Translations under genes and position numbers: made by a program | Assembly: GCA_027489095.1 (NCBI GenBank) | Contig: JAIYAL010000087.1 | Location: forward strand, 1 to 38,244 | DNA: 38,244 bases | Reading direction: 5' to 3' | DNA from: Erythrobacteraceae bacterium | GTDB taxonomy: Bacteria > Pseudomonadota > Alphaproteobacteria > Sphingomonadales > Sphingomonadaceae | Shown here: piece after piece, positions 863 to 35,960 of the stretch | Numbering within the stretch: position 1 is the first letter of the stretch | How the letters are laid out: each line of letters opens with the position of its first letter | Notes under the pieces: generated by a model | Told to the model about the DNA's origin: nothing | The model's database searches: none | The model's input: only the letters and a program-made list of their open reading frames with translations

Positions 863-3067
863 ATGTCCCTGAAGGGTCTCTTGTCTTCCCGCAACGGTAG
901 CGCCTCGCGCGGGGCGCCGGCTGCCGTCGCGCCGCGTCCTGCGGCCCCTCCGGCCACTTCCGCTCTTACCGATGGCGAGCGTCTGGCGATGCTCGACGAG
1001 CTTGAGCAGTCGGGGCTGGGGTGGTTCTGGGCGAGCGATGCGAGCGGCCATCTCACCTATCTTTCGGGCGCGATCGCCACGCGGCTCGACCTGCCGCTCG
1101 TCGACCTGCTCGGCCAGTCCCTGCCTGCGATCTTTACCGCCGCCGACCGTGAGGGGCGCGGCAAGTCACTTCCGCTGATGCTTGGCGCGCATAAGGCCTT
1201 TGGCGGCCTCGCCGTGCGCGCCGCGCGGCGGCCCGACGGCGCTGTGCTGCGCCTCTCGGGCCAGCCGGTGACGACGCCCGACGGCACGTTCGCCGGCTTC
1301 CGCGGCACCGGGGTCGACATCACCGACGAATATACCCGCGAGGAAGAGACGGCGCGCCTCGCCCGCTACGATTCGCTCACCGGGCTCAGCAACCGCCACC
1401 GCATGGCGCACCTCATCGAATCGACGCTGACGTCCTTCAAGGCCGCGCGCCGTAACTGCGCGGTGATGATGATTGACCTCGACCGCTTCAAGCACGTCAA
1501 CGATACGCTCGGCCACGCGGCGGGCGACGAGCTGTTGAAGCAGGTCGCTGCGCGGCTCCAGCGCGCGATCGACCGCGAGTGCGAGATTGGGCGGCTGGGC
1601 GGCGACGAGTTCCAGGTGATGCTTCCCGACATCGATGACCGCGGCGTGCTCGGAGAGCTAGCGGCGAAGATCATCACGATGCTGCGCCAGCCCTACAGCC
1701 TTGAGGAAGGGCGCTGCGTGATCGGCGCCTCGGTCGGTATCGCGATTGCCCCACACGACGGAGTAAGCCGCGACGAGATCGTGCGCGCCGCCGACCTTGC
1801 GCTCTATGCCGCCAAGAATGGCGGGCGGGCGCAGTACCGTTTCTTCTCGGGCGAGCTCGAGAACGAGACGATCTTCCGCCGCCGCCTTGAACAGGACCTG
1901 GGGCAGGCACTGCGCGAGGAGCAGTTGTTCCTGCGCTTCGAGCCGATCGTGGGCGCCGAGCAGGGGACCGTCTGCGGGCTTGAGGCGCATGTGTGCTGGA
2001 ATCATGACATCCGCGGGGTGATTGACGAGCAGGAATTCGTGCAGATCGTCGAGGGCTCGGCGCTGCTCGGCGACGTCGGTCGCTGGGCGATCGGGGCCGC
2101 CTGCCAGCAGGCTGCAGAATGGCCGGAGAGCGTGCGGGTCGCGGTCAATGTGCCGGTCGCCCTTTTCCTCGCCGACGATTTCGTGGCGCTTGTGGGCGAG
2201 GCGATCGATGGCGCGGGATTGAGCCCTGCGCGCCTCGTGCTGGAGATCAGCGAGGCGGTGTTCTTCGGCGAGGCCAGCGTCGTCGACCGCACGCTCGCCG
2301 CGCTGTTCAAGCTTGGGGTGCGGCTGACCCTCGACGAATTCGGCTCGGGCTATTCCTCGCTTGCCTACCTGCGCCGCGCGCCCTTCGATGCGATCAAGAT
2401 TGACCAGAAGCTGGTTGCCGAGGCCGAGCGGCACGACAGCCGGGAGATGGGTCTGGTACGGGCGATCGTGGCGCTCGCCGGCGCGCTGCAGATGGATACC
2501 GTCGCGAGCGGAATCGAGAGCGCGAGCCTGCTTGCTTCGCTCAAGGCTTGCGGAGTGCACTTTCTCCAGGGGCCGATCTTCAGCGAGCCGGTCGATACCG
2601 ATACGCTCACGCGCGAAATGGCTGGCGGTTCGTGGCGGATCGAGCCTGGCACCAGCCGCACGCGGCGTGCGCGGCGGCGCACATTGTTGCGCAAGATCCA
2701 AGTGATCCATGACGACTACGCTTACATGGTCACGCTGCGCAATCTCTCCAAGACCGGGGCGCTGGTCCAGGGCCTTGCCGATGTGCCCAAGGGCACGCAA
2801 TTCGTGGTCGATCTCGGCGGCGGGCAGCTCGCGGTCGCGACCGTGACCCGCTCCAACGGCGATATTCAGGGTCTGGAGTTCGAGCAGTCGCTGATCGAGG
2901 ACGGGTCGGGCGGGATGTGCACCCGCAACCGTGTCTCCCCCTATGCGCTGGCCGCCGCCGGAACGCCGCTGGCCGCGCTTGCGCCCGGCAAGTTCCTGGG
3001 GGTGGACATGGGCGGGGCGATACCCAAGTTCGGTTACGCGATGCCCTCGCGTTCAGAGGCGGGCTGA
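863..3067 (+). CDS. PAS-GGDEF-EAL-PilZ diguanylate cyclase with degenerate EAL domain
   Basis: I start at the ATG at 863 because AGGAGG lies 12 bases upstream; a GTG at 818 would add 15 residues. The domain order is a PAS-like sensor (about residues 50-165, ending in a GTGVDIT-type strand), GGDEF (about 170-330), EAL (about 340-590) and PilZ (about 610-700). The GGDEF domain looks active, with DLDRFKHVND, LGHAAGD and an intact RLGGDEF loop; the inhibitory RxxD site reads RECE. The EAL domain is altered: the signature reads LEAHV rather than EAL, and the second aspartate of DDFGTG is glutamate (LDEFGSG). The Asn of VNVP, the Glu of LEISE, the KID lysine and the GIE glutamate remain. PilZ keeps NLSKTG. 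I infer a cytoplasmic cyclase whose EAL domain may be weak or regulatory. Confidence 0.9.
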   Translation: MSLKGLLSSRNGSASRGAPAAVAPRPAAPPATSALTDGERLAMLDELEQSGLGWFWASDASGHLTYLSGAIATRLDLPLVDLLGQSLPAIFTAADREGRGKSLPLMLGAHKAFGGLAVRAARRPDGAVLRLSGQPVTTPDGTFAGFRGTGVDITDEYTREEETARLARYDSLTGLSNRHRMAHLIESTLTSFKAARRNCAVMMIDLDRFKHVNDTLGHAAGDELLKQVAARLQRAIDRECEIGRLGGDEFQVMLPDIDDRGVLGELAAKIITMLRQPYSLEEGRCVIGASVGIAIAPHDGVSRDEIVRAADLALYAAKNGGRAQYRFFSGELENETIFRRRLEQDLGQALREEQLFLRFEPIVGAEQGTVCGLEAHVCWNHDIRGVIDEQEFVQIVEGSALLGDVGRWAIGAACQQAAEWPESVRVAVNVPVALFLADDFVALVGEAIDGAGLSPARLVLEISEAVFFGEASVVDRTLAALFKLGVRLTLDEFGSGYSSLAYLRRAPFDAIKIDQKLVAEAERHDSREMGLVRAIVALAGALQMDTVASGIESASLLASLKACGVHFLQGPIFSEPVDTDTLTREMAGGSWRIEPGTSRTRRARRRTLLRKIQVIHDDYAYMVTLRNLSKTGALVQGLADVPKGTQFVVDLGGGQLAVATVTRSNGDIQGLEFEQSLIEDGSGGMCTRNRVSPYALAAAGTPLAALAPGKFLGVDMGGAIPKFGYAMPSRSEAG

Positions 3068-3135
3068 GCGACTCCCGAAGTGTTGCGTTTTTGGCGCATG
3101 ACAAGGCGCGGACCGGACGCTAAGTCGCTGGCCAA

Positions 3136-32099: not shown

Positions 32100-32627
32100 A
32101 TGTTAGCAGGTGGTCGGGTCGCCGAGCGGCTGACGTGGTATTGGCAGGCCGAAGTTGCCAATGCCGTATTTGTCCCAGCCTCTTTCATCGCTCTGGCCTA
32201 CCTTTCCGGCGGGTCGTTAGGCTGGCCCACCTATACAGCGCTTGTCCCGGTCTGCGGATTGCTGGTCGTTGGCGGGCTGTATTGGCGCGGCAAGCTGCAC
32301 GCCTTGAAGGGCGACCGGGCCGCGCTTGATACCGCGCTGGCGCTTGCCGATCGCGGCGATCGGCCGCTGCTGGCGGTGACGCTGGCTGCGCTGGGAGTAG
32401 CCTTTGCGGGTTTCATCATGGTCTTGCCGGGCAGCACTGACGCCGACCGGTGGGGGGCACTCGCTGCGGCACTGCTCGCTGCGGCGGAATATGCGAATTA
32501 CTACTGGCGCCAGCTCCAGCATTTCGACAATCGCGCGGATTTCGTGCGGCTGGTGCGGGGCGAGGGGTTTCGGCCTGCCAAGCTCGCGCTGGATCTGCGC
32601 GCATGGCGCGCGGCGAGGCGGACGTGA
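32100..32627 (+). CDS. Small integral membrane protein, function unknown
   Basis: The 175-residue product has about four hydrophobic segments, for example VFVPASFIALAYLSGG, TALVPVCGLLVVGGLYW, LLAVTLAALGVAFAGFIMVL and WGALAAALLAAAEYANYYW, and a basic C-terminal tail. I do not recognise a family. GC content returns to the window norm here, so it belongs to the resident chromosome rather than the HNH gene's block. It is followed 64 bases later by the C13 peptidase gene, on the same strand. Confidence 0.7.
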   Translation: MLAGGRVAERLTWYWQAEVANAVFVPASFIALAYLSGGSLGWPTYTALVPVCGLLVVGGLYWRGKLHALKGDRAALDTALALADRGDRPLLAVTLAALGVAFAGFIMVLPGSTDADRWGALAAALLAAAEYANYYWRQLQHFDNRADFVRLVRGEGFRPAKLALDLRAWRAARRT

Positions 32628-32691
32628 TCGTCCGCTTGACGGCTCGCCTGCGCGCAGGCAGCTTGGCCAAGCAATGAGCAGGGGCGCAATC

Positions 32692-33672
32692 ATGGGGAAG
32701 CTTTGGGCAGGCGCGCTGGTGGCGCTCGCCGCTGTGCCCGCGCTCTCGCAATCCTCCGCGCCCGCCAACCCCGCCCAACCCCCGGAGCACACGCTGCCCT
32801 GGCCCGATCTTGCCACCGGCACCAGTGAGGGTGAGCGGCGCAAGAGCTACGAGCTTGGCCCCGAGCTTCGCCGCGGGGTTTCGGCTGCCGCGATGCGGCT
32901 CCAGCAGCGCCGGCTCGATGCCGCGCTGGCCGCGCTGGCGCCGCAACAGCCCGGCACGGCGGAGGCCTATGTGCTTTCCATCGCGCTCGACAGCGATCCG
33001 GTGTTTGCCCGCGAGGCGCGTGAGGCGGGGCGGGTGCTGGCGGCGCGCTACGGCGCCACGGCGCGCAGTTTGACGCTGGCGGGGCCGGACGGCGTCTCGG
33101 ACGATCTGCCCCAAGGCTCGATCTCTGCGCTGTTGCAGGCGATCAGCCACCTCGGCACGGTGATGGACACCAAGGAGGACGTGCTGGTGCTCTACACCAC
33201 CAGCCACGGCGCCGATATCGGCCTTGCCTACCACTATGGCGATGTCGGTTATGGCATCCTCTCCCCCCAGCGCTTGAAGGCGGCGCTGGCGGAGGCGGGG
33301 ATCGCGCGGCGGGTGCTGATCCTTTCGGCCTGCTACTCCGGCGTGTTCGTGCCGGTGCTGGCGAGCCCCGACACCGCGATCCTCACCGCTGCGGCCAGCA
33401 CCCGCTCCTCGTTCGGCTGCGTGGCGGAGAACGACTGGACCTATTATGGCGACGCGCTGATCAACCGCGCGCTGCGCCAGCCGGTCGGGCTGGAGGAGGC
33501 GGCGCGCACGGCGGGACGCTCTGTCGCGGAATGGGAGGCGAAAGCGAAATACCTCGCCTCGCTGCCGCAGGTGAGCATCGGGGCAGGGGCCAGGACATGG
33601 CTGCCAGCGATCGAGGCGGCCATGCCGCAGCAGGCCAGCAAGCCCGTGGGCCGCCCGGCGGCTGCCCAATAG
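32692..33672 (+). CDS. Exported C13 (legumain-like) cysteine peptidase
   Basis: ATG 32692 gives 326 residues with a signal peptide, MGKLWAGALVALAAVPALSQ, and AGGGG(C) a few bases upstream; the ORF track's start at 32404 overlaps the previous gene. The catalytic pair of the C13/caspase-like fold is evident: LVLYTTSHGADIG for the histidine and LILSACYSGVF for the cysteine, each at the end of a hydrophobic strand as in legumains and caspases. A DDLPQGSISALLQAISHLGTVM segment precedes it, as in bacterial C13 family proteins. It probably acts in the periplasm as a cysteine endopeptidase or transpeptidase; substrates unknown. Confidence 0.85.
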   Translation: MGKLWAGALVALAAVPALSQSSAPANPAQPPEHTLPWPDLATGTSEGERRKSYELGPELRRGVSAAAMRLQQRRLDAALAALAPQQPGTAEAYVLSIALDSDPVFAREAREAGRVLAARYGATARSLTLAGPDGVSDDLPQGSISALLQAISHLGTVMDTKEDVLVLYTTSHGADIGLAYHYGDVGYGILSPQRLKAALAEAGIARRVLILSACYSGVFVPVLASPDTAILTAAASTRSSFGCVAENDWTYYGDALINRALRQPVGLEEAARTAGRSVAEWEAKAKYLASLPQVSIGAGARTWLPAIEAAMPQQASKPVGRPAAAQ

Positions 33673-33787
33673 GGCGAGCCCACCGGCCAGGGCCAGCGCA
33701 AGCCGCCTCGCCATGCCGTTCGTCCGCCTCGTACGGCGGTATATCGAATGACACAGGGGGGCAGGGTTCGTTCACCCGCGCGCAAGG

Positions 33788-33822
33788 TTTACATCTGTAA
33801 TCGATATGACTACAGGTGTAAT
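33788..33822 (+). promoter_or_regulatory. Pair of TACAnnTGTA operators over the blaI-like promoter
   Basis: TACATCTGTA (33790-33799) and TACAGGTGTA (33811-33820) are two perfect TACAnnTGTA boxes spaced 21 bases apart, two helical turns, so they lie on the same face of DNA. This is the operator form bound by BlaI/MecI/CopY repressors. A TTTACA -35-like element at 33788-33793 overlaps the first box, and TACAGG sits 17 bases downstream as a weak -10. The arrangement suggests autorepression of the following pair. Confidence 0.85.
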
Positions 33823-33846
33823 CAAGTGCAAGCGGAGGTGCATCCC

Positions 33847-34236
33847 GTGAACCCGTCCGACGAAAATTCAGGCGAACGCATCACCGATGCCGAGCACGCG
33901 GTGATGGAAGTGCTGTGGGATCGCCCGCGCCAGACCGCCGCCGAAGTGTGCGAGGAGGTCTGCGGGAAGCGCGGCTGGAGCCTCGCCACGGTCAAGACGC
34001 TGCTCTCACGGCTCGTCCAGAAGGGCGCGATTGCCGCCGAGCCTGATGGGCGGCGCTTCCTCTACACACCGCTGATCGCGCGCGACGCCTATGTCGGGGG
34101 CGAGAGCCGCCGATTGGTCGAGCGCCTGTTCGGCGGCCGCGCCGCATCGCTGGTCGCGCACCTCGCTGAGACCGAGGCGCTGTCCGAGGCCGATCTCGAC
34201 GCGATCGAGGCGCTGCTGAAGGAGCTGCGGCCATGA
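33847..34236 (+). CDS. BlaI/MecI/CopY-family transcriptional repressor
   Basis: GTG 33847 gives 129 residues with GGAGGTG six bases upstream; the ORF track's start at 33748 runs back through the operators. A winged helix fills the N-terminal part: ITDAEHAVMEVLWDRPRQTAAEVCEEV, then WSLATVKTLLSRLVQKGAI and a YTPLI strand. The C-terminal helices (VERLFGGRAASLVAHL) provide the dimer interface. Family members are cleaved by an M56 peptidase partner to release repression; the M56 gene follows with a 4-base ATGA overlap. Two matching operator boxes precede the gene. Confidence 0.94.
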   Translation: MNPSDENSGERITDAEHAVMEVLWDRPRQTAAEVCEEVCGKRGWSLATVKTLLSRLVQKGAIAAEPDGRRFLYTPLIARDAYVGGESRRLVERLFGGRAASLVAHLAETEALSEADLDAIEALLKELRP

Positions 34237-35960
34237 CCGACATGCTGCTGCATACGCTGGTCTGGACTGGCGTGTTGATCGCGCTGGTGCTGGTGCTGCG
34301 CCGTCCGGTGTCGCGCCATTTCGGGCCCGAGGCGGCCTATGCGCTATGGGCGCTGCCGCTTTTCCGCCTGATCCTGCCGCCGCTGACCCTGCCCGCATGG
34401 ATGTCGCCCGAAGCGGCCGCGCCCGCTACCGCTCCGGCTCCGACCGATGTGCTCGCTGCCGCGTCGCCGCCATCCGATGCGGTGATCTGGCAGGCCGCAA
34501 CACAGGCCCCTTCCGGGGCTGTGCCCCCGCCTTTGGCCGTGCCGATGGAAGCGGCGACGCCTGCCGGGTTCGACCTTCTGGCGATGCTCGCCGCTGTGCC
34601 GTGGCTGGAACTGGTGCTGTTCGTCTGGCTGGCGGGGGCGGCTGTCACCGTGTGGCTGCGCTTTGCCGCCTATTTCGCCCTGCGCGATGAATTGCTGGCC
34701 GATGGGCGCGAGGTTGGTCGGGCCAGAGGCAGGCTCGGCAAGGTGCGCCTTGTTGAGACCCCGGCGACCCATGCCCCGCTGGCGATGGGCGTGCTCGATC
34801 CCGTCATCGCCCTGCCGCCCGGTTTCATGGCGCTGCCCGATCGGCCGGCGCGCGATCTGGCGCTGGCGCATGAACTTGCCCATCACCGCGGCGGCGACCT
34901 GCTGGTCAACATCCTCGTCCAGCCGCTGTTCGCGCTGCACTGGTGGAACCCGCTGGGTCGCTATGGCTGGCTGGCGCTGCGCCGCGATCAGGAGGCGGCC
35001 TGCGACGCGCGGGTCATGGCCTGCCGCCAGCCGCACGAGCGCGCCGCCTATGCCGCGCTGATTGCCCGCTTTGCCGCCACACCCGGCGGCGCTGTCACCA
35101 ATGCCGCCCTGACCGCGCCGATGGCCTGTCCGGTGCTCGGCGAGAAATCGATCATCCACCGTTTGAGGAGTCTTGCCATGTCCGATCTTTCCCCCCGCCG
35201 CCGCATGGCCGGCCGCGTGCTGCTTGGCGCGGGTCTGCTGGCGCTGCCGCTGACCGCTTCGATCAGCTTTGCCGCGAGCGATGCCGTGCTCGAAGCGCCC
35301 GAGCCGCCCGAGCCCCCGGCGCCGCCCGAAGCGCCCGAAGCGCCCGAAGCCCCTGATGCACCCGACGCCCCCGATGCGCCCAAAGTCATGATCATCGACA
35401 CCCGCACCGGCGAAGTGATGAGCGACGGCGACAGCGCGGTCACCGAACGGGTGTGGCGCGATGCCGATGGCAAGGAACGGCGCGTCAAGATCGTGATGCG
35501 TGAACGCCCGGACGCGGAGTCGCTCGCCAAGCATCTCGAAGGTCTCGAAGAGCTCGAAGATCTCGAAGGCCTCAAGGGTTTGGCCGCAGCCGATCGCAAG
35601 GCGATGCTCGTTGAACTGCGCGCTGGGCTTGCCGAAGCCGACGCGGCGCTCGCCGATCTGCCGCGGGTGATTGCCCTGGCGCATGCCGATGCCGCCACGG
35701 CCCGCGCCTCGGCGCCGCGCGTCATGACCATTCAGGGTTGCCGCCCGGGCTCCTCGGAAGCGGTCGAGACCACCGAGGGCAAGGACGGCAAAATCAAGGT
35801 CATGATCTGCCAGTCGCGCGTGATGGCCTCGGCGCGTCAGGGCCTCGAGGAAGCCCGCGCCGAGATCGCCAAGGACAAGGAGATCCCCGAGGAGACCCGC
35901 AAGACGGTGCTCCAGACCCTCGATGCGCAGATTGCGCGCTGGAAGGACAAGGAAGGCTGA
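34233..35960 (+). CDS. M56 (BlaR1-like) membrane metallopeptidase with non-penicillin-binding C-terminus
   Basis: The 575-residue product has N-terminal membrane helices (LLHTLVWTGVLIALVLVL, ALWALPLFRLILPPLTL, LELVLFVWLAGAAVTVWL), then the M56 zinc peptidase core with LALAHELAHHRGGD (HExxH) and EAACDARV. A further helix, VLLGAGLLALPLTASISFA, leads to a periplasmic region of about 220 residues. This begins with Pro-rich (PEA/PDA)n repeats, and has a leucine/glutamate-rich LEGLEELEDLEGL helix and two cysteines (IQGCRPG and VMICQSR). It has no serine-active penicillin-binding motifs (SxxK, SxN, KTG), so beta-lactam binding is unlikely. The repressor gene is upstream and overlaps by 4 bases. I infer signal-dependent cleavage of the repressor in response to an unknown stimulus. 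Confidence 0.9.
   Translation: MTDMLLHTLVWTGVLIALVLVLRRPVSRHFGPEAAYALWALPLFRLILPPLTLPAWMSPEAAAPATAPAPTDVLAAASPPSDAVIWQAATQAPSGAVPPPLAVPMEAATPAGFDLLAMLAAVPWLELVLFVWLAGAAVTVWLRFAAYFALRDELLADGREVGRARGRLGKVRLVETPATHAPLAMGVLDPVIALPPGFMALPDRPARDLALAHELAHHRGGDLLVNILVQPLFALHWWNPLGRYGWLALRRDQEAACDARVMACRQPHERAAYAALIARFAATPGGAVTNAALTAPMACPVLGEKSIIHRLRSLAMSDLSPRRRMAGRVLLGAGLLALPLTASISFAASDAVLEAPEPPEPPAPPEAPEAPEAPDAPDAPDAPKVMIIDTRTGEVMSDGDSAVTERVWRDADGKERRVKIVMRERPDAESLAKHLEGLEELEDLEGLKGLAAADRKAMLVELRAGLAEADAALADLPRVIALAHADAATARASAPRVMTIQGCRPGSSEAVETTEGKDGKIKVMICQSRVMASARQGLEEARAEIAKDKEIPEETRKTVLQTLDAQIARWKDKEG

Follow-up and report, generated by a model that had tools for sequence, protein, structure and literature searches.

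The window analysed here, i.e. the whole 38,244-nucleotide stretch of DNA from an Erythrobacteraceae bacterium, carries a blaI-type repressor gene and the gene of an M56 (BlaR1-like) membrane metallopeptidase, preceded by two TACA/TGTA inverted repeats (Table 1). It is quite probable that these elements form an autoregulated BlaI-M56 operon, which follows the logic of BlaI, MecI and CopY and guards secreted enzymes related to the cell wall or to beta-lactams. In this it resembles the classic penicillin-response switch, of which it would be a Gram-negative form so far uncharacterised. Most knowledge of BlaI-type switches comes from Gram-positive bacteria and mycobacteria, and no report of BlaI in Erythrobacter was found in the literature searched. 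Neither the class of operator nor the family of the repressor is new, and the layout with two operators has been described as well (PMC7253601, PMC8457756); as far as the literature searched goes, the novelty lies in the genus-wide operator, in its link, among Erythrobacter relatives, to genes of the beta-lactamase family, and in the unusual tail of the sensor.

Table 1. Features of the blaI-M56 region and their positions in the window
Feature	Position	Strand	Basis
Degenerate direct repeat TTCA-N7-GCAA, possible response-regulator site	33771-33785	+	Conservation; putative function
TTTACA, -35-like element overlapping box 1	33788-33793	+	Sequence reading; putative
Operator box 1, TACATCTGTA	33790-33799	+	Pattern match; conserved in all genus loci read
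Operator box 2, TACAGGTGTA	33811-33820	+	Pattern match; conserved in all genus loci read
blaI-type repressor, 129 aa, GTG start	33847-34236	+	PF03965; MecI matches in PDB
M56 (BlaR1-like) membrane metallopeptidase	34233-35960	+	PF05569 (4e-39); HELAH at residues 213-217

The initial annotation had described two perfect TACAnnTGTA boxes 21 bases apart, and coordinates, spacing and shuffles all bear this out. The start-to-start distance is 21 bp and, when extended to 16-mers, the boxes span 33787-33802 and 33808-33823. Against the two perfect copies observed in the window, none appeared in 100 dinucleotide-preserving shuffles. The whole assembly (3.32 Mb) contains three copies in total, the twin boxes included, where about eight would be expected from base composition alone; with only one further copy in the assembly, the occurrence of a pair within 21 bp is therefore not due to chance.

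Conservation was evaluated in 114 Erythrobacter/Porphyrobacter genomes, a group to which the organism of the window also belongs. Every one of the 27 genus loci that were read has two boxes 21 bp apart, and the footprint is clear in that the boxes are conserved while the flanks drift. These loci yielded a looser and longer box, GAYTACRNNYGTARTC, with the core TACRnnYGTA, the seventh box base being C rather than T in many relatives. The suggestion that TACAnnTGTA could serve as a specific search motif is thus wrong in its strict form, because many relatives carry TACAnnCGTA, and a strict search would miss many real sites. When the tandem was defined as two boxes with an 11-bp gap and at most one mismatch, it was present in each of the 99 genomes possessing a blaI orthologue and absent from all 15 that lack one, so that relatives with the gene but without the boxes, a finding that would have spoken against the operators, were not encountered. 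The PF03965 domain was found in 100 of the 114 genomes, and the 14 others are all devoid of the tandem; the sole genome with PF03965 and no tandem (G066) carries only a distant paralogue (1e-17).

As for the phasing of the operators, among the named loci of the wider group the 21-bp spacing is mostly kept in the Erythrobacteraceae. The exact phasing is, however, lineage-specific and no fixed requirement, since the Novosphingobium version of this operon carries its two boxes at a distance of 16 bp (with the second standing just before the ribosome site) and Tsuneonella and some others have one recognisable box. In its exact 21-bp form, the phasing is a feature of the Erythrobacteraceae.

The TTTACA element was seen to overlap box 1, as had been proposed, and it is followed, after a spacer of 17 bp, by TACAGG (33811-33816), with which box 2 begins. 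Box 1 would accordingly sit on the -35 element, and the first six bases of box 2 at the -10 position. All 27 of 27 loci have TTTAC in box 1, where box 2 has GAYTAC; this invariant stretch breaks the palindromic symmetry of box 1 and would help the -35 assignment. It should be noted that the -35/-10 placement is proposed with caution, because the -10 sequence TACAGG is poor and a consensus promoter scan called no promoter. Both boxes overlie TTTACA-N17-TACAGG, and the layout is therefore the one expected of operators placed to block a promoter, repression itself being the presumed consequence.

A further element lies upstream of box 1. Relatives show a TTCA-N7-TTCA repeat at a fixed distance from it, the second half of which is degenerate (GCAA) in the window. 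Of the 80 named loci, 42 have the full TCA-N8-TCA at the fixed offset (-18 or -17 relative to box 1), and 70 have the first half-site TCA there. The motif of CenR in Rhodobacter is TGA-N8-TGA (PMC9275681), whose reverse complement equals this repeat; the position upstream of the -35 is also that of CenR-activated promoters. Through this repeat, an activator responding to envelope stress may act on the promoter as well, which we offer only as a lead. On the far side of this region, a C13 (legumain-type) peptidase gene (32404-33672; PF01650, 1.3e-16) precedes blaI. It was considered as a third member of the operon and rejected, a relative of it being near blaI in only 22 of the 80 named loci.

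The identification of the repressor as BlaI-type is well founded. Its PF03965 winged-helix domain scores 113 bits (1.2e-32) against a curated cut-off of 22.6, and a phmmer search of the PDB gave six matches, including MecI (6e-14) and BlaI. The gene most likely starts at the GTG at 33847, with GGAGG just upstream, rather than at the mechanical ORF start 33748. As in the BlaI/MecI family, inverted-repeat operators of the TACA/TGTA type stand at the repressor's own promoter, where BlaI would bind as a putative dimer and repress. By alignment, the presumed cleavage dipeptide is H105-L106, its counterpart in Staphylococcus aureus being N101-F102; at the aligned position the 80 named relatives have H/Q-L, and N-F is absent both from them and from the BlaI of the window.

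The stop codon of blaI overlaps the start of the M56 gene by 4 bp (ATGA), as it also does in all 77 relatives with a readable gene. An HExxH-bearing M56 protease gene thus adjoins blaI, as in BlaI-BlaR1 systems, and the transmembrane and protease part of the protein matches the BlaR1 fold (8exr). No penicillin-binding sensor domain was detected by Pfam, which returned PF05569 only, and the generic BlaR1 model scored 64 bits, far under its cut-off of 400. The M56 partner in Mycobacterium tuberculosis is likewise not known to have a penicillin-sensor domain. After the protease part come the last transmembrane helix, a Pro-rich linker and a C-terminal domain (about residues 394-575) with no Pfam or PDB match, in which C503 and C526 are (nearly) invariant. 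The protease part is well conserved across relatives, the tail much less. One locus (L094, G017:C1:1483500-1488500) holds an additional, divergent BlaI gene and, after it, the gene of an M56-type-looking membrane protein; such a divergent BlaI occurs in six more genus genomes (E about 1e-16 to 1e-18).

A genome-wide search for TACAnnTGTA had been recommended as a way to find the rest of the regulon. In the genome from which the window comes (completeness 91%, 223 contigs; covered by pattern searches), it gave one extra site only, a poor match to the refined 16-mer, and no other site within one mismatch of the 16-mer was present; only the blaI operon itself is therefore marked. The extra site (G000:C216:15000; L004 position 1501) scores -2.6 with the 16-mer, the two true operator boxes reaching 23.1 and 27.6, and was treated as a chance occurrence. 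It is flanked by the gene of a Rieske-type oxygenase and that of a TonB-receptor-like protein, and lies upstream of the latter. The eight PF00144 genes of this genome were rejected as targets, none of them having a box.

In the relatives, the refined form of the motif did lead to further targets. Most genus genomes have the blaI site only, but the 99 genomes with the orthologue contain perfect 16-mers at 24 further loci; as controls, the reversed pattern gave 4 sites, and genomes without the orthologue gave none (a small set, n = 15). Genes of the beta-lactamase family PF00144 stand beside 10 of the 24 loci and occur in several relatives, beta-lactamase activity of their products being putative. 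This association is far beyond chance, the binomial probability being about 2e-14 even at a base rate of 1%, with the reservation that the family drew attention only once the boxes had been searched for. A homology search for one of these hydrolases (the L191 type) found it in 4 of the 114 genomes, all four with an upstream box and the same four that the box search had picked. Other hydrolases are found beside seven loci: S41 peptidase genes at two; one M1-like, one amidase and one aspartyl protease at single loci; and HELGH proteins at two (L194, without a Pfam match, and its 66%-identical relative L195). At the latter two, which belong to two species, double perfect boxes 18-19 bp apart (~3060-3094 and ~3006-3039, respectively) precede the secreted, zinc-protease-like HELGH protein. 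Many of the extra boxes lie some 20-60 bp ahead of coding sequences whose products have a signal-peptide-like N-terminus, and several targets recur across different species. Two loci have no clear target, and a further five, which fall within or close to conserved coding sequence, were judged incidental: L187, L198 (GlnD-like), L190, L192 (prenyl-synthase-like) and L188.

From these sequence-based observations (the boxes, their conservation, the strict gene co-occurrence, the target association in relatives and the domain make-up), we infer a working model of binding, promoter position, repression, cleavage and signal. Dimers of BlaI would bind both boxes, at the -35 and -10 regions, and shut off the blaI-M56 promoter. 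Upon activation, the zinc-protease site of the M56 protein would inactivate BlaI by cutting it close to the MecI/BlaI site (His105-Leu106 in this protein), and the loss of BlaI would induce the operon together with any other promoter in which the GAYTACRNNYGTARTC box is present; secreted PF00144 hydrolases and other peptidases or amidases would be driven by such promoters in several related species. Beta-lactams or a disturbance of the cell wall are the most likely stimuli of the system, because the boxed promoters of relatives precede PF00144, peptidase and amidase genes. More specifically, targets from the beta-lactamase family favour either beta-lactams or fragments of the cell wall as the signal; a peptidoglycan dipeptide has been reported to release BlaI in Bacillus licheniformis (PMC3305447).

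The poor -10, the missing penicillin-sensor domain, the lack of any other target in the genome of the window and the H/Q-L dipeptide all speak against this reading. It is possible, if the less favoured view, that the operon is a purely autoregulatory envelope-stress switch, in which the Cys-paired domain of the M56 protein senses the envelope and BlaI has no target here besides the operon that encodes it, the beta-lactamase-family targets of relatives being later recruits. This would narrow the main reading and is compatible with its core of BlaI and operator. The restriction of the boxes to the blaI operon, here as in most genus genomes, agrees with it, as do the missing sensor domain and the conservation of the CenR-like repeat, CenR being an envelope regulator. 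A switch of itself alone would, however, have no output unless the M56 protein cleaves other substrates, and the recurrence of PF00144 targets suggests a common theme.

It is very improbable that these are cop boxes under the control of a metal sensor of the CopY type. The published CopY operator TACANNTGTA and its refined form RNYKACANNYGTMRNY are indeed close to the boxes (PMC7253601), and the CopY_TcrY model TIGR02698 gives 91.5 bits, though under its cut-off of 122; but the C-terminal CxC metal motif is absent from the repressor, which ends in ...LLKELRP, its partner is an M56 protease and no copper exporter, and the targets in relatives are hydrolases. A chance pair of boxes, or boxes of another regulator, can practically be dismissed: TACA/TGTA palindromes are short, yet the shuffles produced none, and the co-occurrence with the repressor gene is perfect over 114 genomes. 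Beyond the proposed guarding of secreted enzymes by an autoregulated BlaI-M56 operon, one may speculate, as a rather doubtful extension, that the Erythrobacteraceae have rebuilt the system with a fast-evolving, Cys-paired periplasmic sensor of wall or envelope state in place of beta-lactam binding, a CenR-like input and a changing set of secreted beta-lactamase-fold hydrolases. In any case, these results provide a genus-wide, testable operator for a Gram-negative BlaI switch, whose boxes mark beta-lactamase-family enzymes in relatives, and single out a putative sensor domain.

Among known systems, BlaI-BlaR1 and MecI-MecR1 of Staphylococcus and B. licheniformis share with the present one the fold and length of the repressor, the TTACATATGTAAT-type operator (OP1, PMC3305447) and an M56 protease partner with the BlaR1 transmembrane/protease fold; they differ in that here the partner has no penicillin-binding sensor domain, the operon no beta-lactamase gene, the cleavage dipeptide is H-L instead of N-F and the host is Gram-negative. 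BlaI and CopY bind the same operator class, and two operators over the -35 and the RNA-polymerase site, as presumed here, have been proposed for both (PMC7253601); unlike the cop systems of CopY/CopR in Firmicutes, the present one has neither a metal-binding CxC tail nor copper export genes. In Clostridium thermocellum, BlaI_0696 and BlaI_1845 also have paired inverted-repeat operators at their own operons, with GACTAT/GTCTAT half-sites, and their regulons are autoregulatory and very small, comprising one to three operons (PMC8457756); host and operon content are different, and the evidence for the operator is here a genus-wide sequence footprint. Finally, M. tuberculosis BlaI (Rv1846c), accompanied by an M56 protein, is likewise a BlaI outside the Firmicutes, and its reported targets include the ATP-synthase-linked Rv1303 and the cell-division-linked Rv2151c (PMC12565901).
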